The notes under the pieces: generated by a model
The model's database searches: none
Seen by the model: only the letters and a program-made list of their open reading frames with translations
What the model was told of the DNA's origin: nothing
From: Kineothrix alysoides
GTDB lineage: Bacteria; Bacillota; Clostridia; Lachnospirales; Lachnospiraceae
Assembly: GCF_000732725.1 (NCBI RefSeq)
Contig: NZ_JPNB01000002.1
Span: 1,860,001 to 1,924,000, forward strand
Length of the DNA: 64,000 bases
Direction of reading: 5' to 3'
Shown: positions 2,781 to 55,503 of the stretch, in pieces
How positions within the stretch are numbered: position 1 is the first letter of the stretch
Layout: each line of letters starts with the position of its first letter
Translations under genes and position numbers: made by a program

Positions 2781-4358
<1,578 letters not shown>

Positions 4359-4908: not shown

Positions 4909-7029
<2,121 letters not shown>

Positions 7030-15620: not shown

Positions 15621-17129
15621 ATGAGTGAGAAGCGAATGAAGTTTCTGAATACACATGTTGACAATTTAACGATGGAAGAAGCGGTAAGAGAAGCCAAAAG
15701 GCTTATTCTGAAAGGTAAGAACAGTTATGTTGTCACGCCGAATGTGGATCATATTGTAAAAATAGAACATGACGGGCTGTTCCGTGACATATATGAAAAG
15801 GCTGATTTGGTTCTGACGGACGGAAAGCCTCTTATTTGGATGTCCAGATGGATGGGGACGCCGATTAAGGAGAAGATTTCCGGTTCCGATTACTTTCCGG
15901 AGGTATGCAGGATGGCCGCGCAGGAAGGTTTTTCGGTGTTCCTGTTAGGAGCCGCCGAAGGAGTTGCCAAGAAAGCGGCCATTAATCTCATGAAAAAGTA
16001 TAAAAATCTTAAGATTGCCGGAGTATATTCTCCGAGCTACGCGTTTGAGAACGACGTGGAGGAGATTTCTTATATTATAAAGAAAATCAACGCGGCGAAG
16101 CCGGATATTCTCTGTATCGGCTTGGGAACACCCAAGCAGGAGAAATTCTATCATCGCTACAAGGAGCAGCTGAAAGTGCCGCTTACATTGCATATAGGAG
16201 CCACTATCGACTTTGAGGCCGGGGTGGTAAAACGAGCTCCTAAGTGGATCAGCTATGTAGGACTGGAATGGTTCTACAGACTAGTAAAGGAGCCGAGGAG
16301 ATTATATAAGCGCTATCTATTAGAGGACGTGGAGATATTCCCCATTTTCCTGAAATATAGAAAATATGGAAGCGGAAGTAAGGTAAGTGCAATCCAGCCG
16401 GAGACCTGCAGCATATTGGGCGTGGACATTGCGGTAACGAATATGCGGTCCGTAATCGGTTATTTGACCAAGAATCTGGAGCGGCTGCGAGGTGAATATG
16501 TGTGCGTATCCAACGTGCATACTACTGTAATGGCATATAACGACGAAGCGTATTGCCGGATACAGAACGAGGCGGCTTTAGCAATTCCTGATGGAAAGCC
16601 ATTGTCTCTCATGTGCAGGCTGCGGGGATATAAGGATGCCCAGCGCGTGGCAGGCCCTGATTTAATGCCCGAGATATTGAAGCTGTCGGAGGAAAAGGGA
16701 TATCGGCATTATTTTTATGGAAGTACGGAGGAGACGTTGAATTCCCTGGAGGCTAATCTCAGGGAGCGTTATCCAAGATTAAATATTGTAGGAATTTATT
16801 CACCTCCTTTTCGAAAGTTGACACCGGAAGAGGATGCTGAAATCATGGAGAAAATAAGTCTGACAAAGCCCGATTTCCTTTGGGTAGGATTGGGAGCGCC
16901 CAAGCAGGAGCGCTGGATGTATGAACACAAAGGAAAGGTCGATGCAGTTATGCTGGGCGTAGGTGCGGCTTTCGATTTCCATGCAGGAACGGCGAAACGT
17001 GCACCGAAATGGATTCAGGAATTCTATTTGGAATGGCTGTACCGCCTGATTCAGGATCCGAAGCGCTTATTGAAGAGATATGTGCGCTCCAACATACAGT
17101 TTATATGGCTGATACTTACGGGACGATGA
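15621..17129 (+). CDS. Tandem WecG/TagA/CpsF glycosyltransferase fusion
   Basis: The 502-residue protein is two complete TagA-family (GT26) domains in a row: residues about 8-245 and about 262-500. Each has the TDGKP or PDGKP segment carrying the proposed catalytic aspartate, a GVYSP/GIYSP stretch, a GLG(T/A)PKQE motif, a GxxxDFxAGxxKRAPKW loop and a basic amphipathic tail (YRLVKEPRRLYKRY, YRLIQDPKRLLKRY). Single-domain members transfer ManNAc or ManNAcA from UDP-sugars to an undecaprenyl-PP-linked GlcNAc at the inner membrane face. Both halves look catalytically intact, so it could add two sugars or form an obligate intramolecular pair. Usual family length is about 240-260 residues. Ribosome site AAAGAGG at 15603. 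Confidence 0.85.
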   Translation: MSEKRMKFLNTHVDNLTMEEAVREAKRLILKGKNSYVVTPNVDHIVKIEHDGLFRDIYEKADLVLTDGKPLIWMSRWMGTPIKEKISGSDYFPEVCRMAAQEGFSVFLLGAAEGVAKKAAINLMKKYKNLKIAGVYSPSYAFENDVEEISYIIKKINAAKPDILCIGLGTPKQEKFYHRYKEQLKVPLTLHIGATIDFEAGVVKRAPKWISYVGLEWFYRLVKEPRRLYKRYLLEDVEIFPIFLKYRKYGSGSKVSAIQPETCSILGVDIAVTNMRSVIGYLTKNLERLRGEYVCVSNVHTTVMAYNDEAYCRIQNEAALAIPDGKPLSLMCRLRGYKDAQRVAGPDLMPEILKLSEEKGYRHYFYGSTEETLNSLEANLRERYPRLNIVGIYSPPFRKLTPEEDAEIMEKISLTKPDFLWVGLGAPKQERWMYEHKGKVDAVMLGVGAAFDFHAGTAKRAPKWIQEFYLEWLYRLIQDPKRLLKRYVRSNIQFIWLILTGR

Positions 17130-26074: not shown

Positions 26075-26815
26075 ATGGATATTACTATTTTATTTCCGGT
26101 ATTGAATGAGAAACGCAGACTTAAAAACGGTATTGTTACGACAGTTGAGTATTTGCGAGAAAATTGCAATGTGCCGTGCAAGCTTATGATTTTAGATAAC
26201 GGATCGACAGATGAAACACCTGAAATTGCAGAGGAACTTTGTAAAATGTATGAAGAAGTAACATATGTGAGGGTGGAAGAACGCGGGGTTGGAGTGGCTT
26301 TCAGAGAAGGTATAAAGAGAAACACCAGTGATATTGTGGGGTATATGGATATCGACTTATCCACGAATATTAAACATCTGGGAGAGGCCATCCGCATTTT
26401 TGAGAACAGAGAGGATGTAGAATACATTAATGGCACAAGATTCAGCAGACAGTCGGATACACAAGGAAGGAAATGGTATCGGAAAATCACATCAAAAGGC
26501 CTTCTGATACTTTTAAAAAGTATTTTAAAAATGAAATCCACTGACGCAGTCTGTGGTTTTACTTTCATGCGTAAAAGAGTAGCAGACGAATTAATCGAAG
26601 TATCGGGGAATGAGAACGGGTGGTTCTATACGGTTGAAATGCTGCTCCGCGCAGAGAGGGGAGGCATACGTATCATGGATATGCCGGTGGAATGGCAGGA
26701 GGATTATAATACTACGGTAAAGTTATGGAAAACGATAAGAAATTATCTAATGCAAATAAAAAGGCTCTACAGGGAATTTAAGAAAGAGGACAAAGCAAAT
26801 GCTAAAAAGAGTTGA
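26075..26815 (+). CDS. GT2 glycosyltransferase, DPM/GtrB-like without membrane domain
   Basis: ATG 26075 is chosen because AAGGAG lies six bases upstream; a GTG at 26060 is in frame but overlaps that site. The 246-residue enzyme has ITILFPVLNEKRRL, LDNGSTDETPEI and the metal-binding DIDLS near residue 90, followed by VCGFTFMRKRV, which fits the acceptor-binding region of family 2 enzymes that make dolichyl- or undecaprenyl-phosphate sugars. It has no transmembrane helix. It overlaps the aminotransferase gene by 17 bases. Donor sugar unknown. Confidence 0.75.
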   Translation: MDITILFPVLNEKRRLKNGIVTTVEYLRENCNVPCKLMILDNGSTDETPEIAEELCKMYEEVTYVRVEERGVGVAFREGIKRNTSDIVGYMDIDLSTNIKHLGEAIRIFENREDVEYINGTRFSRQSDTQGRKWYRKITSKGLLILLKSILKMKSTDAVCGFTFMRKRVADELIEVSGNENGWFYTVEMLLRAERGGIRIMDMPVEWQEDYNTTVKLWKTIRNYLMQIKRLYREFKKEDKANAKKS

Positions 26816-27896
26816 TTTAGGGAGAAATTATAGAAATCATAAGGACGAGTATATGAAGGCGATAGAGGAAGTCTGCGAAGAAACGGCTTTTTCAGGAGGA
26901 AAGTTCGCAGATAAGTTCGATCAGGAATTTGCAGAATATATTGGGGTCAGAGCGGCAACGGGAGTGGATAACGGAACATCCGCCATTCAGCTTGCGATGC
27001 TGGCACTTGGTATCGGTCCCGGAGATGAGGTCATTGTTCCTGCAAATACTTATATCGCTACCGCATGGGGAGTTACCTATACCGGAGCGATTCCGGTTTT
27101 TGTAGATTGTACTGAGGATACATGGGAAATTGATCCTGCAGCCATTGAAAAAAGGATTACGGAAAAAACGAAAGCGATTATCGGCGTACACCTTTATGGA
27201 CAGCCCTTCGAATTTGGGGAGGTAAAGGAAATCGCGGACAGGCATGGTTTGTATGTGGTGGAGGATTGTGCGCAAGCCCATAATGCCAGATATGAAGGAA
27301 GAATGGTGGGAGGCCTTGGTGATATCGGATGCTTTAGCTTTTATCCCGGAAAGAACCTTTATGCTTTTGGAGAAGCGGGCAGCGTGACATCGAATAATAA
27401 GAAATATATAGACTACATCGACATATTAAAGAACCAGGGATGCAAGGTGAGATATTACCACGATGTAGTGGGATATAACATGCGCATGGAAGGAATTCAG
27501 GGAGCTGTTCTCAGCGTTAGTCTGAAGTATTTGGATGAATGGACACGCAGAAGGCAAGATATTGGGTATCGTTATCTGAGAGGGATAGTTAACCCGATGA
27601 TCAGAAGGCAGGAACACCCTGGCAATACCGAATCAGTGTTTCATCTATTTGTCATTACCGTACCGGATGCAGAAGACTTTCTTCGTTTTATGGATGAGCG
27701 GGAAATTGAATGCAATAGGCATTACCCGGTGCCCTGTCATTTACAGCAGGCATATGCGCACTTGAACTATCGAAAAGGAGATTGTCCAAATGCAGAATAT
27801 TTGGCAGAGCACTGCATTACTCTTCCTATGTTCCCGGAAATGACAGAGGATGAAATTAACCTTGTCATAGATGCTTGTAATGAATATAACAATTAA
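26799..27896 (+). CDS. DegT/DnrJ/EryC1/StrS-family sugar aminotransferase
   Basis: The 365-residue PLP enzyme has the family features in order: TAFSGGKFADKF, GVDNGTSAIQLAM (phosphate-binding), PANTYIATAWGV, DCAQAHNA (Asp contacting the pyridine nitrogen), and SFYPGKNLYAFGEAG with the Schiff-base lysine near residue 184. Such enzymes put an amino group at C3 or C4 of a keto nucleotide sugar. With dTDP-glucose 4,6-dehydratase (rmlB) and Rmd in the window, a 4-keto-6-deoxysugar is a natural substrate, but the 3- or 4-keto choice cannot be read from sequence. It ends the plus-strand operon. Confidence 0.85.
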   Translation: MLKRVDLGRNYRNHKDEYMKAIEEVCEETAFSGGKFADKFDQEFAEYIGVRAATGVDNGTSAIQLAMLALGIGPGDEVIVPANTYIATAWGVTYTGAIPVFVDCTEDTWEIDPAAIEKRITEKTKAIIGVHLYGQPFEFGEVKEIADRHGLYVVEDCAQAHNARYEGRMVGGLGDIGCFSFYPGKNLYAFGEAGSVTSNNKKYIDYIDILKNQGCKVRYYHDVVGYNMRMEGIQGAVLSVSLKYLDEWTRRRQDIGYRYLRGIVNPMIRRQEHPGNTESVFHLFVITVPDAEDFLRFMDEREIECNRHYPVPCHLQQAYAHLNYRKGDCPNAEYLAEHCITLPMFPEMTEDEINLVIDACNEYNN

Positions 27897-28948
27897 AAAG
27901 GGGGCTGCCAGTTAGGATCTCCGTTATGAATAGGATCGTTATTTTGAAGGAATTCCCGATATTCGGGAATTTCTTCTTTTATTGTATTCATAAAAACGAT
28001 GGAACCCTCTGTATTCAAGTGGTCCGCATCTGCAAAGTATTCCAGGTGGCTGGTAAAGCGCTCGTCCTGCGAATAATCATAATAAGGAACACCGGTGGAG
28101 CCCGTTACGGTATGAATCGTATCATAAAACTCTGTTTTGAATTCGGCGGAAACCATATCGGTGTAATAAGAGGTGTAAGGTGTAGTAACGAGTACAGGAG
28201 TAATGCTGTTTTCCATGCAAAGATTTATTATATCATACAGATTGTCTATACGCTCCTGCATGAAATACTCCTCTTTATTTTCCATATGCCTTTGATACCT
28301 ATTCAGTGCCTTTTCGTAAAACTTAGCCTCCGCCTCTGCTTTTTCCTCGGGAGTAAGAACGCTGCTTTCTGCGGCAAAGGCTTTTAGGGGCATGAACGAG
28401 TATAAAATACTCGGGGGGAAAAGCTTTACAATATCTTCTCCGGCGGACAGAATGGGCATCCTATGTGTTACCAAATCGATATAAGGGCTGTAGCCGGGGA
28501 TATACCGTGGGGAAAGGAAGGTATAATATTTGGCGTTCAAGGATTGCATCTCCGTTTCGTTAACAACCTCGTTGTTAAAGGAAAAGTAAGAAACCGGAAT
28601 AAACAGGATGCTGTCCTTGGCGAAATGATTCCGATACATGGAGAGTATCGCGAGGTCATAGTTATAGGTCTGACTCGCCATGGCGAAGTTGAAGCACTCG
28701 TAGCCACTCTGTTTTGTCAGCTCCTCATAATAAAAAGCATATTCCCCATGAGAACTGCCGATATTAGCAATCTGGATATTGTTAAAAGTGGAATCCATAA
28801 AGTCGAATTTATGTGCGTCTGCATAAGGGTCTTCCATTACTTGCTTATAACGGTAATTTAACAAAAGCAAAAGCAAAAAGGCGATACCGCTTACTGTGAT
28901 ACATTTCATGAGAAAATTGATATAAGATTTTTTCATAAGCTCCATCAA
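27893..28948 (-). CDS. Membrane-anchored SGNH-like partner of the MBOAT at 28945
   Basis: The 351-residue protein has one N-terminal membrane helix (CITVSGIAFLLLLLLNYRY), then an extracytoplasmic domain whose first strand ends in IANIGSSHGEYAF, matching the GxSx block of SGNH-type acyltransferase partners (DltD, AlgX/AlgJ, PatB kind). The C-terminal part has DADHLNTEGS, the Asp-x-x-His block. It overlaps the MBOAT gene by four bases. In known systems the MBOAT moves an acyl group across the membrane and the SGNH protein transfers it to the polymer. The polymer and acyl group are unknown. Confidence 0.65.
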   Translation of the reverse strand: MMELMKKSYINFLMKCITVSGIAFLLLLLLNYRYKQVMEDPYADAHKFDFMDSTFNNIQIANIGSSHGEYAFYYEELTKQSGYECFNFAMASQTYNYDLAILSMYRNHFAKDSILFIPVSYFSFNNEVVNETEMQSLNAKYYTFLSPRYIPGYSPYIDLVTHRMPILSAGEDIVKLFPPSILYSFMPLKAFAAESSVLTPEEKAEAEAKFYEKALNRYQRHMENKEEYFMQERIDNLYDIINLCMENSITPVLVTTPYTSYYTDMVSAEFKTEFYDTIHTVTGSTGVPYYDYSQDERFTSHLEYFADADHLNTEGSIVFMNTIKEEIPEYREFLQNNDPIHNGDPNWQPPF

Positions 28949-30396
28949 AACTGAAAATAATAGAATTCAGTCGATACTCCTTTCTCCGAAAATAAAAGAA
29001 TGACAAGTAAAAACAGGATATAAATGGGGTAGCGCACCCATATTTTCTTCGAGGAAATATAGGAAATAACATCCGTTTTCAAGGAGGCATAATCATAAAT
29101 CCCGAGTAAAATAACGGGAATGGAGATATATACCATATGAGTGTAAGTCATATCCAGACAAATTACCGCTGTTTTCAAATATTCGTTCAAATCGTTGATC
29201 TGGAATAAACTTAAGCTGATCATTCGCCATGCATCTGCAAGGTTGCCCGCACGGAAGAAAACCCATGCAAAGCAGACGAGAAAAAAGGTCAAGGCGAGAG
29301 AGAGAAAACTAAAGAAGCCTTTGCGGGAAGCAGTATGTCCCCTTTTTTTACCAGGAAATAAAAGATCTTGTATAATCTGGTAGAGACCGTGCAAGCCTCC
29401 CCATACGAGGAAGTTCAGTCCCGCGCCGTGCCAAAGACCGCTTACCAAAAACGTGACCATCAAATTCAAAGCGTGCCGGAACCGGCCGACCCGATTGCCG
29501 CCCATAGGAATGTATAGATAATCCCGAAACCATGTGGAAAGGGATATGTGCCAGCGGCTCCAGAATTCTTTTATGCTGTGAGAAAAATAAGGACTTTTGA
29601 AGTTCTGGGTCAATTCGATGCCAAACAGCATAGCAGTGCCTACCGCGATATCCGTATAGCCGGAAAAATCACAATAAATCTGAATGGCAAACATGATCGT
29701 AACAATGATATAAACAAGCCCGATATAACTGTTTACATTGTCGAATACAGAATCCACGCTGGATACGAGCAGATTTGCCACAACCAGCTTCTTAAAATAG
29801 CCGACGGCCATGAGCTTTAAGCCATAGGCGGCCTTGGAAGAGTCGAAGAGACGTATTTTTTTAAATTGAGGAAGCAGCTTGTCTCCCCGCCCGATAGGAC
29901 CGGACAGGAGCTGTGGGAAAAAGGACACAAATAAGCTGTAATAACCGAAATGCTTTTCGGCAGGATACTTGCCCTTATATACATCAATCAGATATCCGAG
30001 AGTCTGGAAAGTATAGAATGAAATACCTACGGGCAGCATAAGCTTTAGGGTAGGGGTTTGTATGGGAATTGAAAACGACTGCGCAGCGGTATTTATAATT
30101 TCGAAGAAAAAGTCTAAATACTTATATAATAAGAGAACACCCGTTAAAGAAAGAATTCCCGAAGCAAGCCCAATCCTCTTGGTACGCAGACTTTTTGATA
30201 TGTTGAAGCTTCTGGCTAACAAATAAGAAATCACGGTAGTAAACAGCAGAAGGAATACATACCTTACGTCGAGGCTCATATAGAAGTAATAGCTGACCGC
30301 TAATAAAAAAACATATCGGTATTTAGAAGGACATATCCAGTATAATAAAAAAACTACAGGTAAAAATATGGCAAAGGCCATAGAATTAAATAGCAT
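28945..30396 (-). CDS. MBOAT-family O-acyltransferase (AlgI/DltB/PatA type)
   Basis: The 483-residue protein has about eleven membrane helices and the MBOAT hallmarks: LPVGISFYTFQTLGYLIDVY near residue 125, SGPIGRGDKLLPQF, FCDFSGYTDIAVG near residue 240, FWSRWHISLSTWFRDYLYIP, and SGLWHGAG with the invariant histidine near residue 315. It transfers an acyl group from a cytoplasmic donor across the membrane for O-acylation of a surface glycan. Its own promoter lies at 30437-30465, and the SGNH partner follows with a four-base overlap. This is the first of three MBOAT genes. Confidence 0.9.
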   Translation of the reverse strand: MLFNSMAFAIFLPVVFLLYWICPSKYRYVFLLAVSYYFYMSLDVRYVFLLLFTTVISYLLARSFNISKSLRTKRIGLASGILSLTGVLLLYKYLDFFFEIINTAAQSFSIPIQTPTLKLMLPVGISFYTFQTLGYLIDVYKGKYPAEKHFGYYSLFVSFFPQLLSGPIGRGDKLLPQFKKIRLFDSSKAAYGLKLMAVGYFKKLVVANLLVSSVDSVFDNVNSYIGLVYIIVTIMFAIQIYCDFSGYTDIAVGTAMLFGIELTQNFKSPYFSHSIKEFWSRWHISLSTWFRDYLYIPMGGNRVGRFRHALNLMVTFLVSGLWHGAGLNFLVWGGLHGLYQIIQDLLFPGKKRGHTASRKGFFSFLSLALTFFLVCFAWVFFRAGNLADAWRMISLSLFQINDLNEYLKTAVICLDMTYTHMVYISIPVILLGIYDYASLKTDVISYISSKKIWVRYPIYILFLLVILLFSEKGVSTEFYYFQF

Positions 30397-30689: not shown

Positions 30690-31706
30690 ATGAGGAGAAA
30701 AATGAAAAAATATATTCTCTTAGCGATGCTTTTGTTTGTCGCAGGCTGTGGAACAGCAGCGAAAGAGCAGGATTTAGGAGAAGAGACGTCGCAGGGGGAG
30801 GTAACAGCGCAGGAAACGCCCAAGGCTACGGAAGAAATGAACAAGGAGAATGAGAAAGAACGGGAAGAATCCCAGCCGGAGGAAGGAATAGTGGTCGTTT
30901 CGCCGGAGGATTTAATAGAACCCGAAATCGAGGAGAAAGAAGTGACAGAAGCACCACCGGAGGTGCCTGATGGCAGCCGCCTGCAGATTGTCTTTCTTGG
31001 AGACAGCATTCTTGACGGTTATCGGAATGAAACCGGAATCGCGTCGATTACAGGGGCACTGTGCAATGCCGATGTGTACAATCTCGCGATGGGGGGAACG
31101 ACGGCGGCGTTAACGGAGTATGAAAGTGCTGTATATGAGAACTGGAGTTCCCGCAGCCTTCAAGGGGTAGTGCATGCGATTTGCGGTAACGTAGATGAGG
31201 GTATATTGAATGGCAGCAGGGCAGGAGAGGTGTTTGCTACCTGTGATTTCGACAAAACGGACTATTTTATTATTGAATACGGAATGAATGATTTTCTCAG
31301 TGCCATTCCGATAAACAACGATTCCAATACCAATCAGGAGTATACCTATGTTGGAGCTTTGAGAATTGCCATTAATCAGTTGCGGAGCAACTATCCCAAC
31401 GCGCAGATCGTTCTGTGTTCTCCAAACTATGCGCAGTTTTGGGGAAAGGATGGAGCATATCTGGGAGACGGTAACATGGTGGATAACGGGGGCGGTACGC
31501 TGGCGGCTTACTACCGTGTATGCGGCAATGTTTCCGCAGATGAGCACACGTTATTCCTAAATGCCTACGAAGGAATAGGTTTGAATACCTATTCGGCGGA
31601 TGAGTATTTGGAGGATGGCATCCATTTGTCGGAAAAAGGCCGCAGGAAATATGCGGAGAAGCTTTCGGAAGTTATTTTAGGATATGAAGAAACAAGGAAT
31701 AATTAA
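30690..31706 (+). CDS. SGNH/GDSL hydrolase lipoprotein
   Basis: The 338-residue protein has a lipoprotein signal (MKKYILLAMLLFVAGC, cysteine at about 21), a Glu/Gln-rich linker of about 75 residues, and an SGNH hydrolase domain from residue 95: FLGDSILDGYRNE (catalytic serine), a GG block, YGMNDFL (the GxND block) and DGIHLSEKGRRKYAE (Asp-His). It would remove or move acyl groups on an extracellular polymer. It is transcribed away from the MBOAT/SGNH pair on its left and ends at the hairpin at 31761-31790. Confidence 0.85.
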   Translation: MRRKMKKYILLAMLLFVAGCGTAAKEQDLGEETSQGEVTAQETPKATEEMNKENEKEREESQPEEGIVVVSPEDLIEPEIEEKEVTEAPPEVPDGSRLQIVFLGDSILDGYRNETGIASITGALCNADVYNLAMGGTTAALTEYESAVYENWSSRSLQGVVHAICGNVDEGILNGSRAGEVFATCDFDKTDYFIIEYGMNDFLSAIPINNDSNTNQEYTYVGALRIAINQLRSNYPNAQIVLCSPNYAQFWGKDGAYLGDGNMVDNGGGTLAAYYRVCGNVSADEHTLFLNAYEGIGLNTYSADEYLEDGIHLSEKGRRKYAEKLSEVILGYEETRNN

Positions 31707-31729: not shown

Positions 31730-31758
31730 TTGCGGCAAATAGTAAAATATGTTAAAAT
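31730..31758 (+). promoter_or_regulatory. Promoter of the FkbH-ACP module
   Basis: TTGCGG (31730-31735), a 17-base spacer and TAAAAT (31753-31758). The predicted start (near 31765) lies downstream of an ATG at 31749, so that ATG cannot begin the FkbH protein. Confidence 0.5.
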
Positions 31759-31877: not shown

Positions 31878-33656
31878 GTGAAAGCATTGGAGTATCCCTT
31901 TAATAGTGAATATATTTTAAAAAAGTCCAAGAGACTGAAGCGTGAACTTTTGGAAGAGTCTATGCCGCGCCTTAAGAAAAAGATAGCGGTACTGGGCGGG
32001 AGCACTACCCATGACATCGTACGTATGCTGGAGCTGTTTCTTTTGAATCAGGGAATCGAACCGGAATTTTATGAATCGGAATACGGGCAGTATTTTCAGG
32101 AAGCTATGTTCGAAAACGAGGAACTTTCTTCCTTTGCGCCGGATATCATCTTTTTTCATACGAGTAACCGGAATATTGCAGCATATCCGCAGATAGAGGA
32201 CAGCAAGGAGCAGGTCGAAGAATTGTTAGAAGAGCAATACGGACATTTTTCCTGTATGTGGGACAAGCTGAGAGATACGTACCATTGCCCGATCATACAG
32301 AATAACTTCGAATATCCGTTCTATCGCATGCTGGGAAATAAGGATGCCAGTGACATTCATGGACGCATCCGCTTTATCACGAGATTGAACGAGCGGTTTT
32401 ATGATTATGCACAGAATCATGAAAATTTTTATATTAACGATATAAACTATATGGCGGCGGCTTACGGCCTCGACAGATGGTCGGATCCATTTTACTGGCA
32501 TATGTATAAGTATTGCATGTGCATGCAGGCGATTCCTGAGTTCGCATTTAATTTATCCAATATTATCAAAGCTGTTTTCGGCAAAAATAAAAAGGCTCTG
32601 GTATTGGATTTGGACAACACGCTGTGGGGCGGCGTTGTGGGAGATGACGGAGCCGAGAATTTGGAAATCGGTCAGGAGACTTCCCTTGGACAGGTGTATT
32701 CCGAATTCCAGGGATATATAAAAGCGCAGAAGGAAATCGGAGTGATGCTAAATGTAAGCTCCAAGAATGAAGAGGAGAATGCGCTTGCCGGCCTGAGCCA
32801 CCCGGAAGGAATCTTGAAGCCCGAGGATTTTATTCTGATAAAGGCTAATTGGGAGCCGAAGAGCATAAATATAGACGCGATTGCCTCGGAGCTGAATATT
32901 TTGCCGGACAGCCTTGTGTTCGTAGACGATAATCCTGCGGAGCGGGAGATTGTCAGTGTGGATGTACCGGGAGTGGCTGTGCCGGATATAGGAAGGCCGG
33001 AACAATACATTCATATTCTTGATCGCTCCGGCTTCTTTGAAGTAACAGGGCTTTCACAGGACGATAGAAAGAGAAACGAAATGTACAAGGCCAATTTGCT
33101 CCGTGAAAAGCAGCAGGCAGGATTTGCAGATTACGCGCAGTACCTCCTCTCTCTTAGCATGCATGCAGTCATAAAGGCCTTCGAACCGATGTACATGTCG
33201 AGAATTGCCCAGCTTACTAATAAAAGCAATCAATTCAACCTGACGACCAAAAGATATACCCAAAGCGAAATCGAGCAGACCGCAGCGTCTGCAGATCACA
33301 TCGCCCTATATGGCAGGCTTGAGGATAAATTCGGAGATAACGGAATAGTTTCCGTTGTTATAGGCCGAAAGGAAAGCAGAGCACTGCATATTGAATTATG
33401 GATTATGAGCTGCCGCGTACTGAAAAGAGATATGGAATACGCCATGATGGATTGTCTTGTACAGGAGTGCAAGAAGGAAGACCTTCATACGATCTTAGGT
33501 TATTACTATCCCACGGCCAAAAACCAAATGGTAAAAAACTTTTATGACCTGCAAGGCTTCAGCAAGATAGAAGAGGATTCCGAAGGGAATACTACATGGG
33601 AATATAAAATTCCCGAAAACTATGAAAATAAGAATAAGGTCATAGAAGTAGTATAG
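31878..33656 (+). CDS. FkbH-like HAD-superfamily (HAD-IIIC) acyl-loading enzyme
   Basis: The GTG at 31878 has AGGAGA eight bases upstream and gives the usual N-terminus (KALEYPFNSEYILKKSKRLKRELLE); 592 residues. An N-terminal SGNH-like domain (VLGGSTTHD near residue 34) is followed by a HAD domain with LDLDNTLWGGVVGDDG near residue 240 (nucleophile and acid Asp), SSKNEEE and FVDDNPAERE. A GNAT-like C-terminal domain (about 420-592) includes NKSNQFNLTTKRY and YYYPTAKNQMV. FkbH-type proteins load glyceryl units from 1,3-bisphosphoglycerate onto a carrier protein. The adjacent carrier protein supports that role here. The acyl group is inferred. Confidence 0.85.
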   Translation: MKALEYPFNSEYILKKSKRLKRELLEESMPRLKKKIAVLGGSTTHDIVRMLELFLLNQGIEPEFYESEYGQYFQEAMFENEELSSFAPDIIFFHTSNRNIAAYPQIEDSKEQVEELLEEQYGHFSCMWDKLRDTYHCPIIQNNFEYPFYRMLGNKDASDIHGRIRFITRLNERFYDYAQNHENFYINDINYMAAAYGLDRWSDPFYWHMYKYCMCMQAIPEFAFNLSNIIKAVFGKNKKALVLDLDNTLWGGVVGDDGAENLEIGQETSLGQVYSEFQGYIKAQKEIGVMLNVSSKNEEENALAGLSHPEGILKPEDFILIKANWEPKSINIDAIASELNILPDSLVFVDDNPAEREIVSVDVPGVAVPDIGRPEQYIHILDRSGFFEVTGLSQDDRKRNEMYKANLLREKQQAGFADYAQYLLSLSMHAVIKAFEPMYMSRIAQLTNKSNQFNLTTKRYTQSEIEQTAASADHIALYGRLEDKFGDNGIVSVVIGRKESRALHIELWIMSCRVLKRDMEYAMMDCLVQECKKEDLHTILGYYYPTAKNQMVKNFYDLQGFSKIEEDSEGNTTWEYKIPENYENKNKVIEVV

Positions 33657-33736
33657 GAAAAGAATTGAAAGTCAAGAAGGTGTGAAAGCAAATCACTCAA
33701 AACGTGGCTTACTGTATGAAAAGGAAGGAAGTAATT

Positions 33737-33976
33737 ATGACTAGAGAAGAAGTATTTAAGACTTTAAGCGAAGTGTTTCAGGACGTATTTGACGATGAAA
33801 CCATTACAGTGAATGGAACGACTACCTCAGAGGATATCGAAGATTGGGATTCTCTGGAGCATATTAATCTGATTGCTGCAGTAGAGCAGGAATTCGGTAT
33901 GAAGTTTACCATGGGACAAGTGGTCACGATGAAGAATGTAGGCGAAATGGCTGATATTATTATCAGCCAGATTTAA
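33737..33976 (+). CDS. Acyl carrier protein
   Basis: ATG 33737 is preceded by AAGGAAG and gives 79 residues of typical carrier-protein length: MTREEVFKTLSEVFQDVF, then DIEDWDSLEHINLIAAVEQEFG with the serine of the D-S-L motif as the phosphopantetheine site, and FTMGQVVTMKNVGEMADII. An upstream in-frame start at 33704 has no good ribosome site. It follows the FkbH-like gene by 80 bases and is expected to carry the acyl group that FkbH loads, in the way DltC carries D-alanine. Confidence 0.85.
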   Translation: MTREEVFKTLSEVFQDVFDDETITVNGTTTSEDIEDWDSLEHINLIAAVEQEFGMKFTMGQVVTMKNVGEMADIIISQI

Positions 33977-33984
33977 GAGAAGCG

Positions 33985-34389
33985 TTAGGAGCGGACCTCC
34001 AACAGCTCTATCATCCCAAGACTTGCGTTCATTAAAAAGGTCACGCGCATATTCTCCAGAGCAGGAGCAGGTGTGGGCATATCGATGGCGGTATATCCGT
34101 TTTCGGTAAGGTATGCCAGGTCGTTTTCGAAGTTGCGTGATTCGTAGCAAAGATGATAAGGTGTGTTTTTATATTTTTTTAAAAGCCCGGCAACGACGGA
34201 GTCGGAACTGACCGGGGAGACAAGCTCTACTACGTATCCATCCTTCTCCATAAAACAAATATTGATCTTGCGGTAATCGTCATAGATGATATCCTGACGG
34301 AGCACATATCCCAGCTGCTGGAACTGTGCTGCTGCCGCATTTATTTTTTTCACTAAATATCCGATATGGTGTACTTTTAAATCTATCAT
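33985..34389 (-). CDS. VOC (glyoxalase/methylmalonyl-CoA epimerase-like) protein
   Basis: The 134-residue protein has the paired beta-alpha-beta-beta-beta layout of the vicinal-oxygen-chelate fold: VHHIGYLVKKINAAAAQFQQLGY in the first half and YHLCYESRNFENDLAYL in the second, with metal-ligand candidates His7 (in HHIGY), Glu near 59 (YVVELVSP), His near 78 and Glu near 128 (GMIELLE). This set of ligands matches methylmalonyl-CoA epimerase and glyoxalase-like proteins. It is on the opposite strand, nine bases after the carrier protein, yet sits inside the FkbH-ACP-MBOAT stretch. A role in epimerising or preparing the loaded acyl group is possible; that is inference. Confidence 0.7.
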   Translation of the reverse strand: MIDLKVHHIGYLVKKINAAAAQFQQLGYVLRQDIIYDDYRKINICFMEKDGYVVELVSPVSSDSVVAGLLKKYKNTPYHLCYESRNFENDLAYLTENGYTAIDMPTPAPALENMRVTFLMNASLGMIELLEVRS

Positions 34390-34418
34390 TGTATTTTCGG
34401 GTCCTCCTCATATTCGAT

Positions 34419-34449
34419 ATTACTATTCAGCCTTCGGCTTCCTGATAAC
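34419..34449. repeat. Fragment of the GTTACTATTCAGCC repeat element
   Basis: ATTACTATTCAGCC followed by TTCGGCTTCCTG is the complement of the right end of the element at 57698-57809 (CCAGGAAGCC...GGCTGAATAGTAAC). It also forms a small GCC/GGC hairpin. Confidence 0.5.
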
Positions 34450-34491
34450 AATTGATACCACGCTTGCAAGCCCGGAAAGGATTTCTTTTTT

Positions 34492-36027
34492 ATGGGAGCT
34501 ACGTTTACATCCTTTTATTTTTTGTGCTTTTATGCATGTATATTAATTATATATTATCTGATTCCCCCAAAAACGCAATGGGTATTTTTGCTTTTATCCA
34601 GCATCGCGTATTATTTGCTTTCCGGAAACGGCATACTAATTTTGTATCCGGTCTGCGCATGCCTTGCAGCATACGCGGGTATACGAATTATGAGCGGGAC
34701 GGATAACCTGAAGAAAAAAAGAGCTGCTATGGCAGGTGTGGTCTTACTGCTCGTCGGTTCTTTGGTGATGCTTAAGTATGTGAACTTCGGCATCAATACG
34801 GTAAATGGAATTGCAGGGATATTTGGAAGTGAGGAGGCGGTACTTACCGGATTTAAGTTTATGGTGCCGCTCGGAATTTCCTTTTATACTTTTTCCATCC
34901 TCGGCTATGTGATAGATGTGTATAATGGAATTGCCGTGCCTCAGAAGAACTTTTTCAAAACGGCGCTGTACGGCATGTATTTTCCTTCTATTTTATCAGG
35001 ACCGATTCTGCGGTATAGGGAGGACGGAGAACAATTTTTCACACATCATCCCTTCAATTATAGGGAAGTGACCTTCGGTTTACAGCGAATGGTGTGGGGA
35101 TTTTTCAAGACCTTGGTAATTTCCGAGAGAATGCGCTTTGTGGTGGATACGGTTTACGGTAATTACGGAGATTATCCCGGTGCATACATATGGCTGGCTA
35201 CGGTATGTTATGCGTTTCAGCTCTATACTAATTTCTCCGGCTGTATGGATATCGTCCTAGGAATGTCTCAGACTTTCGGTCTAAAGCTTCCCGAAAATTT
35301 CGAGACTCCCTTTTTTGCAAAGAATATTTCGGAATACTGGAGAAGATGGCATATTACGCTGGGCGTATGGATGAAGGAATATGTATTTTATCCGCTGCTT
35401 CGTACCGGAGTCTTTACCCGTCTTTCCAAAAATATGAGAGAACGGTTCGGTAAGAAGCGGGGAAAACAGCTCACGACCTTTCTTGCAATGTTCGTGCTTT
35501 GGTTTTCGGTGGGCATCTGGCATGGCGGGGATTGGAAGTATGTCATCGGTTCCGGTCTGCTGCACTGGTTCTACATCGTATCAGGAGAGCTTCTGACCCC
35601 TTTTTTTAATAAGTTTATGGAAAAGCTTCATATCGATCCGAAGAAAAGGTGGGTGGATGTACTGCGCATGCTGCGCACATTCTTCCTCGTAAACATCGGC
35701 TTCGTGTTCTTTCGGGCGGATAGCGCAGCGGATGCTTTTTATATGCTAAAGGGGGCGGTAAGCGTATGGAATGCCGTAATATTGTTTGACGGCTCCGTGT
35801 TTACGCTGGGGCTGGATTTTATAGAATTTACAATAGCGATAGTATCCCTGCTCATTCTGTTTGCGGTATCTGTTATGCAGCAGAAGGAAAGCGTCAGGGA
35901 ACGGATTGAGAAGAAGAAACTTCCCGTTCGGTGGATTATCTGGTATGCTCTTTTATTCTATACCATATTGCTTGGAAATTATGGACCGGGGTATAGTGCG
36001 GCGGAGTTTATCTATCAGGGCTTTTAA
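34492..36027 (+). CDS. MBOAT-family O-acyltransferase, second copy
   Basis: The 511-residue protein has about eleven helices and the family signatures: MVPLGISFYTFSILGYVIDVY near residue 125, PSILSGPILRYREDGEQFF, NFSGCMDIVLGMSQTFG near residue 250, YWRRWHITLGVWMKEYVFYP, and WFSVGIWHGGDW with the catalytic histidine near residue 345. It follows the FkbH, carrier protein and VOC genes with no dedicated SGNH gene next to it, unlike the two other MBOATs. In the Dlt system the MBOAT (DltB) uses an acyl-carrier protein as donor; the adjacent ACP suggests the same here. Ribosome site AAAGGAT at 34479. Confidence 0.88.
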   Translation: MGATFTSFYFLCFYACILIIYYLIPPKTQWVFLLLSSIAYYLLSGNGILILYPVCACLAAYAGIRIMSGTDNLKKKRAAMAGVVLLLVGSLVMLKYVNFGINTVNGIAGIFGSEEAVLTGFKFMVPLGISFYTFSILGYVIDVYNGIAVPQKNFFKTALYGMYFPSILSGPILRYREDGEQFFTHHPFNYREVTFGLQRMVWGFFKTLVISERMRFVVDTVYGNYGDYPGAYIWLATVCYAFQLYTNFSGCMDIVLGMSQTFGLKLPENFETPFFAKNISEYWRRWHITLGVWMKEYVFYPLLRTGVFTRLSKNMRERFGKKRGKQLTTFLAMFVLWFSVGIWHGGDWKYVIGSGLLHWFYIVSGELLTPFFNKFMEKLHIDPKKRWVDVLRMLRTFFLVNIGFVFFRADSAADAFYMLKGAVSVWNAVILFDGSVFTLGLDFIEFTIAIVSLLILFAVSVMQQKESVRERIEKKKLPVRWIIWYALLFYTILLGNYGPGYSAAEFIYQGF

Positions 36028-36141: not shown

Positions 36142-36173
36142 ACATGATTGGAAGGAAACTGGAGAGAGTTAAA

Positions 36174-37115
36174 ATGGATAAAATTGCGGTTTTGATACCA
36201 TGCTACAATGAGGAAAAGACGATTGCAAAGGTAGTGGCCGATACGAAGAAGGCGCTGCCAGAGGCGGTGGTTTATGTATATGATAACAATTCTACGGATC
36301 GTACGGTTGAACTGGCGGCTGCGGCGGGTGCCGTAGTGCGGCATGAATATATGCAGGGAAAAGGGAATGTAATCCGCCGGATGTTCCGCGAAATCGATGC
36401 CCAGTGCTATGTCATGGTGGATGGAGATGACACTTATCCTATGGAATATGCTCCGGAGATGGTGGAGAAGGTGCTTGAACACCATGCGGATATGGTGGTG
36501 GGAGACAGGCTTTCCTCCACATATTTTACTGAGAATAAAAGGCCCTTTCACAATTTGGGAAACAGTCTTGTACGAGGCACGATCAATCGCCTGTTCGGAT
36601 GTAAAATCAAGGATATCATGACGGGATTTCGAGCATTCAGCTACGGCTTTGTCAAGACTTTTCCGGTACTTTCCAAGGGCTTTGAGATAGAGACAGAGAT
36701 GACCATACACGCAGTGTTTAACAACATGCAAATTGAAAATGTCATTGTGGATTACAGGGACAGGCCCGAGGGCAGCCAATCCAAGCTGAACACTTACTCG
36801 GACGGAATGAGAGTGCTTGGAACGATTGGAAGGCTGTATAAGGACTACAAGCCTTTCGGCTTTTTTTCTCTTCTGGCGCTTATTCTTGCGGTAATCGCTA
36901 CCGTATTCTTCATTCCAATACTGGTGGCTTTTATAAGAACGGGTGTGGTGGATAAGTTTCCTACGCTGTTTGTTTGCTGTTTCGTTATGCTGGCGGCAGT
37001 TCAGGCCTTTTTCTCCGGAATGATTTTGTCCAATATGGCACTGAAAAACAGAAGGGACTTCGAATTCCGTTTGAATATGATTCAGGGGAAGATAAAAAAT
37101 GATGACGTGGATTAA
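36174..37115 (+). CDS. GT2 polyprenyl-phosphate glycosyltransferase (GtrB-like)
   Basis: Start ATG 36174 follows GGAGAG at good spacing; the ATG ten codons upstream abuts a repeat and has none. The 313-residue enzyme has IAVLIPCYNEEKTI, YDNNSTDRTVE, the metal motif DGDDTY near residue 84, TGFRAFSYGF, and two C-terminal helices (FFSLLALILAVIATVFFIPI; FVCCFVMLAAVQAFFSGMI). It closely fits DPM1/GtrB enzymes that charge undecaprenyl phosphate with a hexose. It overlaps the following membrane gene by 17 bases and probably supplies its donor. Confidence 0.85.
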   Translation: MDKIAVLIPCYNEEKTIAKVVADTKKALPEAVVYVYDNNSTDRTVELAAAAGAVVRHEYMQGKGNVIRRMFREIDAQCYVMVDGDDTYPMEYAPEMVEKVLEHHADMVVGDRLSSTYFTENKRPFHNLGNSLVRGTINRLFGCKIKDIMTGFRAFSYGFVKTFPVLSKGFEIETEMTIHAVFNNMQIENVIVDYRDRPEGSQSKLNTYSDGMRVLGTIGRLYKDYKPFGFFSLLALILAVIATVFFIPILVAFIRTGVVDKFPTLFVCCFVMLAAVQAFFSGMILSNMALKNRRDFEFRLNMIQGKIKNDDVD

Positions 37116-43262: not shown

Positions 43263-44282
43263 GTGAAATCTAAAAAGAGAAATATGATTTATATGGCAGC
43301 AATGGTATTAGCGTTTGCGTTGATGTTAACATCCTGCGCAGCGAGTGCCGGTACAGAAGAAAACACAGTAGAAAATATTTCGAATAATTCTTCGGAACAA
43401 AAAGATTCACAAGATAATTCGCCCCAGTCGGGTACTGCACAGGAGGAAGGCAGTACTCAGGCGGAAGATAGTGTACAGAATAAAACGGATGCACAAAGAG
43501 AGGGAAATTCCGGGGATAAAACCAGTATGACGGATGATGAAGCAAAAAATGAAGAGCAGCAGCCCCTCTCTCCTTGGGCCGGCAAAAAAGTCTCTATCTG
43601 CGGCGACAGCATTTCTACCTTCACCGGTTTTATTCCGGACTATTACAGTAAATTCTATCCGGAAAACGGCGATATTACGGATGTGAACGATACCTGGTGG
43701 ATGCAGGTGATAAAACGTACAGGAATGGAGCTTTGCCGGAATGCGTCCTTTTCAGGAAGCACGGTAAGCGGGCAGTCTCAGGACAATCATGAAGGAAGGT
43801 ATTCCTGCGGCAATCAGAGGATGGCGGATTTGGCAAGCGAGGAGGGGGACTGGCCGGATATAATTATCATTTTGATGGGTGCCAATGACTTGCTTAACCA
43901 TATCCCGTTAGGAGCTTATAACAGCGCTTCAGCAGTGGAAGAAGGATATATACAGACCTTCAGCGAAGCTTATGCGCTGATGTTGGATAAGATGAAGACG
44001 TGGTATCCCGATGCTGAAATTTATTGCTGCACCATTGCGGAGGTATCCCGCTGGAACGATGCGGGAGAAAAGTTCCCATTTATGAACGAGCACGGCCTGA
44101 CAGTGAAGGACTATAATGCATGGATAACTGCCATTGCACAGGAAAAGGGAGCGAAGCTTATCGATGTGTATAACTGCGGAATAACGTATGAAAATGCGCA
44201 GGAATATACCAGTGACGGAACGCATCCTAATGCGGCAGGGGCGAAGCTCATTGCGGATAAGGTCTGCGAGACTTTTCAATAA
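43263..44282 (+). CDS. SGNH/GDSL hydrolase lipoprotein, second
   Basis: A GTG start follows GGAGAATGGTGGA. The 339-residue protein has a lipoprotein signal ending LMLTSC (cysteine about residue 25), a Glu/Ser-rich linker to about residue 95, and an SGNH domain with VSICGDSISTFTGFIPD (nucleophile serine), GANDLL, and DGTHPNAAGAKLIADKV (Asp-His). It resembles the lipoprotein at 30690 in layout but not closely in sequence. Likely an extracellular esterase for acylated glycan. It ends at a strong bidirectional terminator. Confidence 0.85.
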   Translation: MKSKKRNMIYMAAMVLAFALMLTSCAASAGTEENTVENISNNSSEQKDSQDNSPQSGTAQEEGSTQAEDSVQNKTDAQREGNSGDKTSMTDDEAKNEEQQPLSPWAGKKVSICGDSISTFTGFIPDYYSKFYPENGDITDVNDTWWMQVIKRTGMELCRNASFSGSTVSGQSQDNHEGRYSCGNQRMADLASEEGDWPDIIIILMGANDLLNHIPLGAYNSASAVEEGYIQTFSEAYALMLDKMKTWYPDAEIYCCTIAEVSRWNDAGEKFPFMNEHGLTVKDYNAWITAIAQEKGAKLIDVYNCGITYENAQEYTSDGTHPNAAGAKLIADKVCETFQ

Positions 44283-53988: not shown

Positions 53989-55503
53989 ATGTTATTTAAC
54001 TCATATAAATTTGTATTTGCTTTTCTGCCGGCGTGCCTTCTGATCTATTACTTGCTGGAAAAAAGGGGCAGAGGCGCGAAGCTCTGGCTGATAGCAATAT
54101 CCCTATGGTTTTACGGGAGTTTTCGGACAGGGTATCTGCTGATTCTTATAGCGAGTATGGCTTTTAATTATGGGGCGGTTCATGGGATGAGCCGGGTGAA
54201 AGAAAGTGTTTCATACTGTAAAAAAGGGCTGTTGGCAGTCGGAATCCTTGGTAATCTGGGGCTTTTGTCCTATTTTAAATATGTCAATTTCTTTATTGAT
54301 AATATAAACGCATTGGGGGGCAATTTGCCGCTTTTACAAGCGGCACTACCTATCGGAATCAGTTTTTTTACCTTTTCACAAATTTCTTTTTTGGTGGATA
54401 ACTATAGGGGGGAAATAAAGTCCTGTGGATTTATGGATTATGTGCTGTATATTTCTTATTTCCCTAAGCTGGTGGAAGGACCTATCGTTTTCCATGCCCA
54501 GATGCTGCCGGAATTTACACAAATCGGGAAAAGAGGATTCGATGCGGAACGTTTTATGCGAGGACTTTGCCTGTTTGTTTTCGGTATGTTAAAAAAGGTA
54601 GTATTGGCAGATACCTTCGGCGGAGCTGTAGACTATGGCTATTCCAATCTGGGAAGCATGCACGGCACCGATGCCTTACTTTTGGTGATTTTTTATGCGC
54701 TTCAGCTTTATTTCGATTTCAGCGGTTATATAGATATGGCGATAGGAATCAGCCGCATGTTCAATATAGATCTTCCGATAAACTTCAACTCGCCCTATAA
54801 GGCACAAAATATTGTGGATTTCTGGAAGCGGTGGCATATTACTTTGAGCCGATTTTTCACGAAATATGTATATATTCCTCTGGGGGGGAACAGAGAAGGA
54901 GTATGGAGAATGTATCGCAATCTGCTGATCGTATTTTTGCTCAGCGGTCTGTGGCATGGGTCGGGAATGGGTATAAACCACTCATGGAACTTCATTTTAT
55001 GGGGAATGCTTCACGGGGTATTGTACGTATTTACCCGTATGTGGCAAAGAAGGATAGCGAAACCGAAGGAAGGAAGCACAGTACATAACTTGAAGACATC
55101 ATTCCTTCATGGGATGAGCGTACTGCTCACCTTTGGATATGTCAGTGTTACGTGGGTATATTTCCGGGCAGAAAGTGTGGCGCAGGGGAACGAGCTTTTG
55201 CGCTTGGTAATAAAGGGTGGATTTGCCCGCATAAATAAGAATCTTGCTGAATACTTTAACCTGGATGAGTTCTGGTATGTCTTAAAGGTGCTTCATCTGG
55301 ATAGCTGGGAATACGGACATTATATTATGATGTTCGTCATCACGGCGTTCTCCCTTCTGCTCGTGTTTTTCGGCAAAAATGCGATGGAAATTTCCGAAAA
55401 AATAAAGCCGAAAGTGTGGTCGGCAGTGATAATGGCGGGACTGTTCCTGTGGTGTGTCCTGGCCTTTTCAAATGTCAGCAGTTTTCTTTACTTTAACTTT
55501 TAA
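53989..55503 (+). CDS. MBOAT-family O-acyltransferase, third copy
   Basis: The 504-residue protein has about eleven helices and the family motifs: ALPIGISFFTFSQISFLVDNY near residue 120, KLVEGPIVFHAQMLPEF, YFDFSGYIDMAIGISRMF near residue 243, FWKRWHITLSRFFTKYVYIP and SGLWHGSG with the catalytic histidine near residue 322. The closest pattern is AlgI/PatA-like. It is followed after 64 bases by an SGNH-like partner in the same direction, so the pair probably O-acylates a surface polymer. Confidence 0.88.
   Translation: MLFNSYKFVFAFLPACLLIYYLLEKRGRGAKLWLIAISLWFYGSFRTGYLLILIASMAFNYGAVHGMSRVKESVSYCKKGLLAVGILGNLGLLSYFKYVNFFIDNINALGGNLPLLQAALPIGISFFTFSQISFLVDNYRGEIKSCGFMDYVLYISYFPKLVEGPIVFHAQMLPEFTQIGKRGFDAERFMRGLCLFVFGMLKKVVLADTFGGAVDYGYSNLGSMHGTDALLLVIFYALQLYFDFSGYIDMAIGISRMFNIDLPINFNSPYKAQNIVDFWKRWHITLSRFFTKYVYIPLGGNREGVWRMYRNLLIVFLLSGLWHGSGMGINHSWNFILWGMLHGVLYVFTRMWQRRIAKPKEGSTVHNLKTSFLHGMSVLLTFGYVSVTWVYFRAESVAQGNELLRLVIKGGFARINKNLAEYFNLDEFWYVLKVLHLDSWEYGHYIMMFVITAFSLLLVFFGKNAMEISEKIKPKVWSAVIMAGLFLWCVLAFSNVSSFLYFNF

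Follow-up and report, generated by a model that had tools for sequence, protein, structure and literature searches.

What does an FkbH-type enzyme do in a locus of glycan genes that has no polyketide synthase? The question is posed by a 64,000-nt stretch (here called the window) of the 4.68-Mb genome of Kineothrix alysoides, which is assembled in three contigs. It contains the genes of an FkbH protein, an acyl carrier protein (ACP), a VOC protein and an MBOAT, for which a preliminary description had proposed a Dlt-like surface-modification module delivering a glyceryl or lactyl group. On balance the probable answer is a Dlt-like, carrier-dependent acylation of the surface, in which FkbH would occupy the place of DltA, the VOC protein would tailor the acyl group on its carrier, and the MBOAT together with an SGNH protein would transfer it to a glycan.

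Gene organization of the unit

Starting at the 5′ end of the unit, an SGNH/GDSL lipoprotein (30690–31706, + strand; PF13472 at 48 bits, over the cut-off; lipobox VAGC) precedes the FkbH gene (31878–33656, +). The FkbH open reading frame (ORF) opens at 31749, while the likelier start is the GTG at 31878, preceded by AGGAG, which is the start given in the preliminary description. The protein is composed of a HAD-IIIC domain with an N-terminal FkbH_N domain (TIGR01686 274 bits, cut-off 146.65; PF21211 also over cut-off), and matches the solved relative 3slr with E 3.2e-53. The ACP follows (33737–33976, +; PF00550 25.5 bits, cut-off 20.8), with an intact DSL phosphopantetheine site as had been described. 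The VOC protein (33985–34389, −; PF13669 61 bits, cut-off 27) is encoded on the opposite strand, with its stop 8 bases from that of the ACP (tail to tail) and its start 102 bases from that of the MBOAT (head to head). The gene order stated earlier stands but conceals the minus strand of the VOC gene. Both this strand and the SGNH gene were absent from the preliminary description. A genome of the same genus (L073) has the identical order and strands of all five genes, from the SGNH lipoprotein through to the MBOAT.

The MBOAT (34492–36027, +; PF03062 52.7 bits, cut-off 27) is assigned to the carrier-protein (Dlt-like) type on the evidence set out below. Its catalytic histidine, also noted earlier, is H344, invariant in 19/19 and 31/31 aligned relatives; its C-terminus reads FIYQGF, and Y508 is likewise invariant in the aligned relatives. 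The turn of PLGGNR or similar sequence that follows the RWH motif in AlgI-type MBOATs is missing, as it is from DltB.

No PKS or NRPS domain was found among the 20 surrounding ORFs run through Pfam, in agreement with the preliminary description, and a polyketide role at the window was rejected on that basis. The longest listed ORFs of the window (1387 and 944 aa), which lie outside that scan, look by eye like surface proteins. Elsewhere FkbH does occur in assembly-line ORFs, lying within ORFs >700 aa in 5 of 80 FkbH loci and also in L236 and L237. A profile scan found exactly one ACP and one FkbH in the window. GNAT, NeuB and MaoC gave no match there with home-made profiles built from these loci only, so that no enzyme other than the MBOAT is in view to take over the acyl-ACP.

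Co-inheritance of FkbH, ACP, VOC and MBOAT

The FkbH search covered 392 Lachnospirales genomes and returned 88 rows including the window, with FkbH present in 73 genomes. Of the 87 rows outside the window, 80 form the FkbH-locus set, taken up to 9 kb on each side; the other matches are in G139, G098 (two), G070, G079, G163 and G184. Ten candidates per genome were scored in the VOC search, five in the MBOAT search and four in that for turn-less MBOATs, so misses are possible.

The VOC family provides the sharper test of linkage, since it can be searched without reference to FkbH, although nine VOC proteins from FkbH loci supplied its profile and the family is thus defined there. It is found in 26/392 genomes of the order at E 1e-15, and FkbH is present in 23 of these 26, compared with 50 of the 366 others (Fisher 1e-15, uncorrected for kinship). 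Two of the three VOC genomes without FkbH (L232 and L233) have the gene adjoining methylmalonyl-CoA mutase and carboxylase parts (by eye), and because of these neighbours their VOC proteins are probably true methylmalonyl-CoA epimerases. In the third (L231) VOC, ACP, an AMP-binding enzyme (AMP-ligase) and a thioesterase lie together. Across the class the VOC family occurs at E 1e-25 in 13/391 genomes, eight of them outside the order, and in all eight the FkbH and VOC domains are at most about 0.4 kb apart; in one of these (G513) the VOC match holds stop codons and its ORF is only 108 aa. Three loci outside the order (L274, L276 and L278) contain a same-strand FkbH-ACP-VOC-MBOAT run, and none of the neighbours listed bears a glycan-gene label. 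Their MBOATs end in FIYARI rather than FxYxxF and no SGNH label is nearby, so the last step of these systems may differ. The preliminary description had named a lack of co-occurrence in other genomes as refuting it; co-occurrence is strong both inside and outside the order.

In the FkbH-locus set an ACP lies within 2.5 kb in 57/80 and a turn-less MBOAT within 9 kb in 23/80, 21 of these 23 with an ACP and 18 with an SGNH-labelled gene; a turn-bearing MBOAT alone is found in 3/80. The VOC locus set comprises the best 80 of 237 VOC relatives in named genomes, nearly all Lachnospiraceae and not independent of each other. FkbH is found in 51 of these and ACP in 57, the ACP accompanying FkbH in 51/51; among these 51 loci 35 also have a turn-less MBOAT, 31 also an SGNH-labelled gene and none MaoC. 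For the 29 VOC loci without FkbH in reach, 26 genomes carry FkbH elsewhere in the assembly, and at 13 of the 27 such places found FkbH has ACP and MBOAT within 1.5-kb flanks (in L204 by way of an MBOAT fragment at the edge).

Two other arrangements were observed among VOC loci. In L121, L122, L136, L147 and L163 VOC and ACP are directly followed by an SGNH gene, with FkbH elsewhere in each genome. In L149, L141 and similar Eisenbergiella loci VOC lies between a PseB-like dehydratase and a LegC-like aminotransferase (both below equivalog cut-offs), and genes for a sugar-phosphate transferase and an ATP-grasp protein come next.

Could surface-glycan loci simply collect acyl genes, making the neighbourhood one of chance? 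MBOATs are indeed common, being found in 311/392 genomes of the order and three times in the window. The adjacency of VOC and FkbH in all eight genomes outside the order, the FkbH-ACP-VOC-MBOAT runs and the domain fusions described below make chance very improbable, as does the fact that the other two MBOATs of the window (28945–30396, − and 53989–55503) are of AlgI type.

The MBOAT class and its proposed SGNH partner

In place of the PLGGNR turn the window MBOAT has a longer basic stretch with predicted helices at 288–303 and 306–319. DltC docks with DltB at Met302, Val305, Ile306 and Met309 (PMC11035591), and the docking helix of DltB aligns with this turn-less region. The turn is absent from 66 and present in 58 of 124 different MBOATs. 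Those without it make up 28/39 of the MBOATs on the same strand and within 1.5 kb of FkbH or ACP, 31/47 of those farther away or on the opposite strand in FkbH loci, and 7/16 of those in loci without FkbH. None of the 22 controls is turn-less; 20 of these are high PF03062 scorers whose genomes gave no FkbH match, and the other two are MBOATs of the window genome, a choice (mostly top PF03062 scorers) that favours the canonical type and is a first point against the proposed system. In the window genome five MBOATs were found (14/14 candidates scored), of which only that at 34492–36027 is turn-less. As a divide between classes the turn is a property seen on Lachnospirales MBOATs, PatA itself lying outside the alignment.

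Turn-less MBOATs are found beyond FkbH. A profile of them detects matches at E ≤1e-130 in 141/383 genomes, so that the class is wider than FkbH. This figure is an upper bound, because MBOATs that have the turn reached as much as 460 bits with a similar profile, a score within the range of the matches counted. Twenty matches of at least 522 bits were sampled, 19 from genomes without an FkbH match and one from a genome (G262) that has FkbH elsewhere. None has the turn and none has FkbH in its locus, while an ACP is present in 14, an AMP-ligase in 13 (recognized by its similarity to that of L231, with Pfam run on the L289 enzyme only) and an SGNH-labelled gene in all 20 (17 labelled by a profile seeded from the DltD-like protein of the window; Pfam GDSL is weak in two of the seven such proteins tried). 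Within equal short flanks an ACP accompanies 12/20 of the sampled turn-less MBOATs and 0/20 controls. Those loci with AMP-ligase, ACP and MBOAT look like Dlt-like sets. Among them L289, L290 and relatives within L280–L299 are sets of AMP-ligase, ACP, MBOAT and DltD-like protein without FkbH. The ligase gene of L289 and L290 is immediately preceded by one for an Asp/Glu racemase (PF01177), which could point to D-aspartyl or D-glutamyl groups there rather than D-alanyl.

The MBOAT phylogeny is a quick tree computed with the helix columns left out, in which L200, counted here as turn-bearing, is still labelled FkbH_neg. Twenty rows make up the main FkbH-linked clade (SH-aLRT 98), which groups with two Dlt-like rows (98) and lies within the Dlt-like part of the tree; a DltB fragment has a very long branch and is unplaced. 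The turn-less MBOATs of L047, L079, L060, L075, L067, L179 and L187 sit in the AlgI-like part, which implies either repeated loss of the turn or an error in that part of the tree. The window MBOAT scores 144 bits with TIGR04091, below the 375 required, as do the other two window MBOATs at similar values. Its top fold match is DltB, from a list that held no AlgI or PatA structure for comparison. The Dlt analogy drawn in the preliminary description is strengthened by the grouping with MBOATs linked to AMP-ligase and carrier, and by the absence of the turn from the region where DltB docks DltC. For the same reasons FkbH appears to have replaced DltA in the window system. The simplest history would have FkbH taking over a Dlt-like MBOAT from a ligase, though the direction depends on the root.

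A different destination for the acyl group must be weighed. FkbH, ACP and VOC might supply the acyl group to an N-acyltransferase of the cytoplasm for attachment to an amino sugar, a role that GNAT may have in nonulosonate loci, leaving the MBOAT as an unrelated, acyl-CoA-using enzyme. NeuB lies within 9 kb of 14/80 FkbH loci, GNAT-like-VOC fusions occur in L044 and L050, VOC-FkbH-ACP-GNAT-NeuB runs are found in L272 and L273, and the window itself has a DegT sugar aminotransferase (26799–27896). We regard this as unlikely at the window, where neither GNAT nor NeuB was matched by the home-made profiles. The four-gene runs of L274, L276 and L278 lack labelled glycan genes among the neighbours listed, FkbH, ACP and MBOAT stay together at 13/27 places where the VOC of the genome is elsewhere, and the class of the MBOAT also argues against it.

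In the proposed surface acylation the MBOAT would act with an SGNH partner. The lipoprotein 30690–31706 contains GDS, GMND and DGIHL blocks (motifs read by eye) and gives no TIGR04092 or PF04914 DltD match; its L073 counterpart occupies the same place with PF13472 over cut-off. It probably belongs to the unit, its role being suggested by its position. MBOAT-SGNH pairs are common in envelope acylation (PMC12148441). A second candidate partner is the DltD-like protein 27893–28948 (−; Pfam and NCBIfam profiles), and the lipoprotein is the most likely of the two. The DltD-like protein lies behind the second MBOAT (28945–30396, −), which is of AlgI type with the GGNR turn by Pfam/NCBIfam profiles, motif and tree, and the two are taken as a separate, divergent acylation pair. 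The third MBOAT of the window, at 53989–55503, is paired with a protein at 55568–56620 that has no family match and is SGNH-like by eye only. Two further proteins of the window (43263–44282, + and 56681–57667, −) are alike to the lipoprotein 30690–31706 and are located away from carrier-type MBOATs.

The surroundings of the locus are glycan genes: WecG, GT2, GtrA, the DegT aminotransferase, a PMT-like protein and several large DUF-family proteins. A GT2 glycosyltransferase (36144–37115, +; PF00535) lies downstream of the unit as a context gene. A 502-aa ORF (15621–17129, +) has two tandem WecG/TagA glycosyltransferase domains, and at 7638–9986 (+) a mannose-1-phosphate guanylyltransferase-like protein is fused to a phosphomannose isomerase. 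Two collagen-like GPT-repeat proteins (2781–4346, − and 4909–7017, −) have near-identical N-termini and resemble spore-surface glycoproteins (the first by eye); they are possible acceptors of the glycan of the locus.

The VOC protein and the proposed pathway

The model of the VOC protein (pLDDT 95.4) has its best PDB matches in 3hdp and 2qh0, followed by 3oa4 and methylmalonyl-CoA epimerases. Its fold gives a TM of about 0.8 with methylmalonyl-CoA epimerase, compared with 0.36 for the maize glyoxalase I entries listed. The candidate metal ligands noted earlier, H8, E55, H79 and E128, are invariant in 42/42 aligned relatives, which argues for catalysis. Two candidate identities were rejected on their equivalog scores: a true methylmalonyl-CoA epimerase (TIGR03081 44.2 bits, cut-off 114.95) and a true glyoxalase I (TIGR00068 17.5 bits, cut-off 120). 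In the alignment made, the human enzyme too lacks E43 of the Streptomyces epimerase (a residue named in PDB titles), which therefore has no diagnostic value.

One pointer to the substrate is what can take the place of the VOC gene, an alternative that the preliminary description did not contain. Within 9 kb of the 23 carrier-type MBOAT loci with FkbH, VOC is found in ten, MaoC in seven, both in none and neither in six; the chance of zero overlap would be 0.007 if the loci were independent, which they are not. Across the 80 FkbH loci MaoC is accompanied by an SDR in 13/13, and L070, L072 and L074 with L063 and L071 present the VOC and MaoC options within otherwise alike gene orders. Each is also found fused to FkbH. 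The 1295-aa protein of L225 (7936–11823) consists of VOC, FkbH, PP-binding and Condensation domains, possibly an NRPS starter module; in L237 MaoC precedes FkbH within one longer ORF. Since the two are alternatives in these loci and each is fused to FkbH, both VOC and the MaoC+SDR pair probably tailor the FkbH-loaded acyl group. GNAT-like-VOC fusions adjoin FkbH in L044 and L050, and L231, where VOC is paired with an ACP beside another type of loading enzyme, is a third pointer to a carrier-bound substrate. Together the fusions, the exchange with MaoC and the L231 pairing suggest that VOC acts on the carrier loaded by FkbH.

The reaction of methylmalonyl-CoA epimerase moves a proton at the alpha carbon of a thioester, and that of glyoxalase I leads by way of an enediolate to an alpha-hydroxyacyl thioester. 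An alpha-epimerase of glyceryl-ACP is plausible for the VOC protein because it would need just steps of these kinds. This assignment, made by analogy and raised as a possibility in the preliminary description, is the best guess for VOC but a tentative one, and the least certain step of the pathway.

Two other functions of the VOC protein may be set against it. In the first VOC would be glyoxalase-I-like, methylglyoxal and the ACP thiol giving a hemithioacetal and then lactoyl-ACP, as a second route of carrier loading. The solved relatives 3hdp and 2qh0 are deposited as glyoxalase I/lactoylglutathione lyase, the metal set is H/E/H/E, and the VOC-ACP pair of L231 has no FkbH. Such a second route would not need FkbH, yet VOC nearly always accompanies it and is fused to it in L225; the glyox_I equivalog score (17.5 against 120) and the nearer resemblance of the fold to methylmalonyl-CoA epimerase also make this route improbable. 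In the second VOC would perform another step at the alpha carbon or merely guard the acyl-ACP, and the delivered group would be plain D-glyceryl. The six of 23 carrier-type MBOAT loci with neither VOC nor MaoC are in its favour, and the core may work without either. It is given a similarly low probability, given the invariance of the metal ligands and the occupation of the same slot by a catalytic pair, MaoC+SDR.

The pathway that we favour, with VOC as an epimerase, would proceed in four steps. FkbH would load a glyceryl unit from 1,3-bisphosphoglycerate onto the ACP, as in other FkbH pathways. The VOC protein, as a metal enzyme, would remove the C2 proton of the alpha-hydroxyacyl thioester and return it to the opposite face, so that the second epimer of the glyceryl group would result; in sister loci the MaoC dehydratase and SDR reductase would instead dehydrate glyceryl-ACP and then reduce it to lactyl-ACP, leading to a lactyl-type group. 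Of the glyceryl or lactyl group named in the preliminary description, the lactyl half therefore suits the MaoC+SDR loci better than this VOC locus. The acyl-ACP would dock on the cytoplasmic helix of the MBOAT, as DltC does with DltB, and the acyl group would pass to the tyrosine of the C-terminal FIYQGF by analogy with PatA and DltX; PMC12148441 describes an acyl-tyrosine step of this kind in PatA and, together with DltX, in DltB. Lastly the SGNH protein, most likely the upstream lipoprotein, would transfer the acyl group onto a hydroxyl of the surface glycan that the neighbouring glycosyltransferases would build. The gene set, co-inheritance, MBOAT class, fusions and VOC/MaoC exclusivity support the overall scheme at the level of sequence; loading, epimerization, the SGNH partner and the glycan acceptor are inferred.

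Several further observations weigh against this scheme, beside the choice of MBOAT controls. Eleven of the 39 close-neighbour MBOATs keep the turn, which rules out turn loss as an absolute marker of the carrier type, and in L040/L206 (apparently one place), L200, L201 and L214 a turn-bearing MBOAT follows FkbH where no ACP was found. VOC is on the strand opposite to FkbH in 44/51 VOC loci, as in the window, so that the genes are not simply one operon; in Eisenbergiella-type loci VOC lies in a sugar dehydratase-aminotransferase locus without FkbH within 10 kb; and L058 has VOC and MaoC together (1/80 FkbH loci, with no MBOAT there). The SGNH labels outside the window derive from home-made profiles, and of ten labelled proteins run through Pfam GDSL was over cut-off in two, below it in two and without match in six. 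Sister loci carry a DltD-like protein behind the MBOAT rather than a lipoprotein of the window type. The nearest solved relative of the VOC protein, 3hdp (43% identity), is deposited as a Ni-bound glyoxalase I and presumably has glyoxalase activity, so VOC may catalyse another reaction, and the roles proposed here for FkbH, ACP and VOC derive from sequence comparison.

The unit may be compared with several known systems. With the Dlt system (DltA-DltC-DltB-DltD, D-alanylation of teichoic acids) it shares a carrier protein, here the DltC-like PP-binding protein 33737–33976 beside the MBOAT; the MBOAT itself is probably of the Dlt-like type, and an SGNH-type protein is a candidate counterpart of DltD. 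It differs in having FkbH instead of a DltA-like ligase, in the proposed tailoring by VOC or, in sister loci, MaoC+SDR, and in an acyl-tyrosine motif fused to the MBOAT C-terminus, which in Dlt is on a separate DltX. No DltA ligase was matched over the TIGR01734 cut-off genome-wide (10/10 candidates scored), the best being 265 bits against 559.85 in a 4433-aa ORF. PatAB and other MBOAT-SGNH O-acetyltransferases share the fused C-terminal FxYxxF, the catalytic histidine and an SGNH protein as partner, here a proposed one. According to PMC12148441 (2025), acyl-CoA is the donor in MBOAT-SGNH pathways outside the Dlt system and no carrier protein takes part, whereas the window locus has a carrier gene. 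The polyketide pathways that use FkbH-derived glyceryl-ACP (methoxymalonyl-ACP and tetronates; PMC7489565) share FkbH and a stand-alone ACP; the window has no PKS and its acyl group is proposed to go to the MBOAT. FkbH and MBOAT families are both found in the suomilide/varlaxin NRPS clusters, where, according to PMC10143770, FkbH forms a domain of the NRPS and the peptide product is the substrate of the MBOAT. In the Campylobacter jejuni flagellar-glycan locus cj1302 (with an FkbH domain) and cj1301 (annotated as an epimerase) lie in one region, a likeness by description only (PMC7099621). No paper linking FkbH and an MBOAT to surface glycans came up in a literature search on FkbH, with most subscription papers outside it. 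Methylmalonyl-CoA epimerase and glyoxalase I perform alpha-proton chemistry on a thioester or hemithioacetal; the VOC protein shares their fold and metal-ligand pattern, is far below both equivalog cut-offs, and would differ in its carrier-bound substrate. If it is an epimerase, its family would to our knowledge be the first alpha-epimerase acting on a glyceryl-type ACP.

These loci suggest that FkbH can stand in for the ligase and that editing of the acyl group can take place on the carrier, ahead of export. Carrier-fed MBOAT systems may form a broad class, a possibility that we put forward with some reserve, in which the loader (AMP-ligase or FkbH) and the tailoring enzymes (VOC, MaoC+SDR or none) are exchangeable cassettes that re-program the identity and handedness of acyl groups on surface glycans. 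Set against the statement in PMC12148441, carrier-fed versions of MBOAT-SGNH systems seem not to be rare in Lachnospirales. If the proposed pathway is true, loss of the PLGGNR turn would be an imperfect but useful sequence sign of carrier-fed MBOATs, and a testable function would be at hand for a VOC family in which the solved proteins carry the PDB name glyoxalase I. Hydroxyacyl esters would then join the expected chemistry of the surfaces of gut bacteria.

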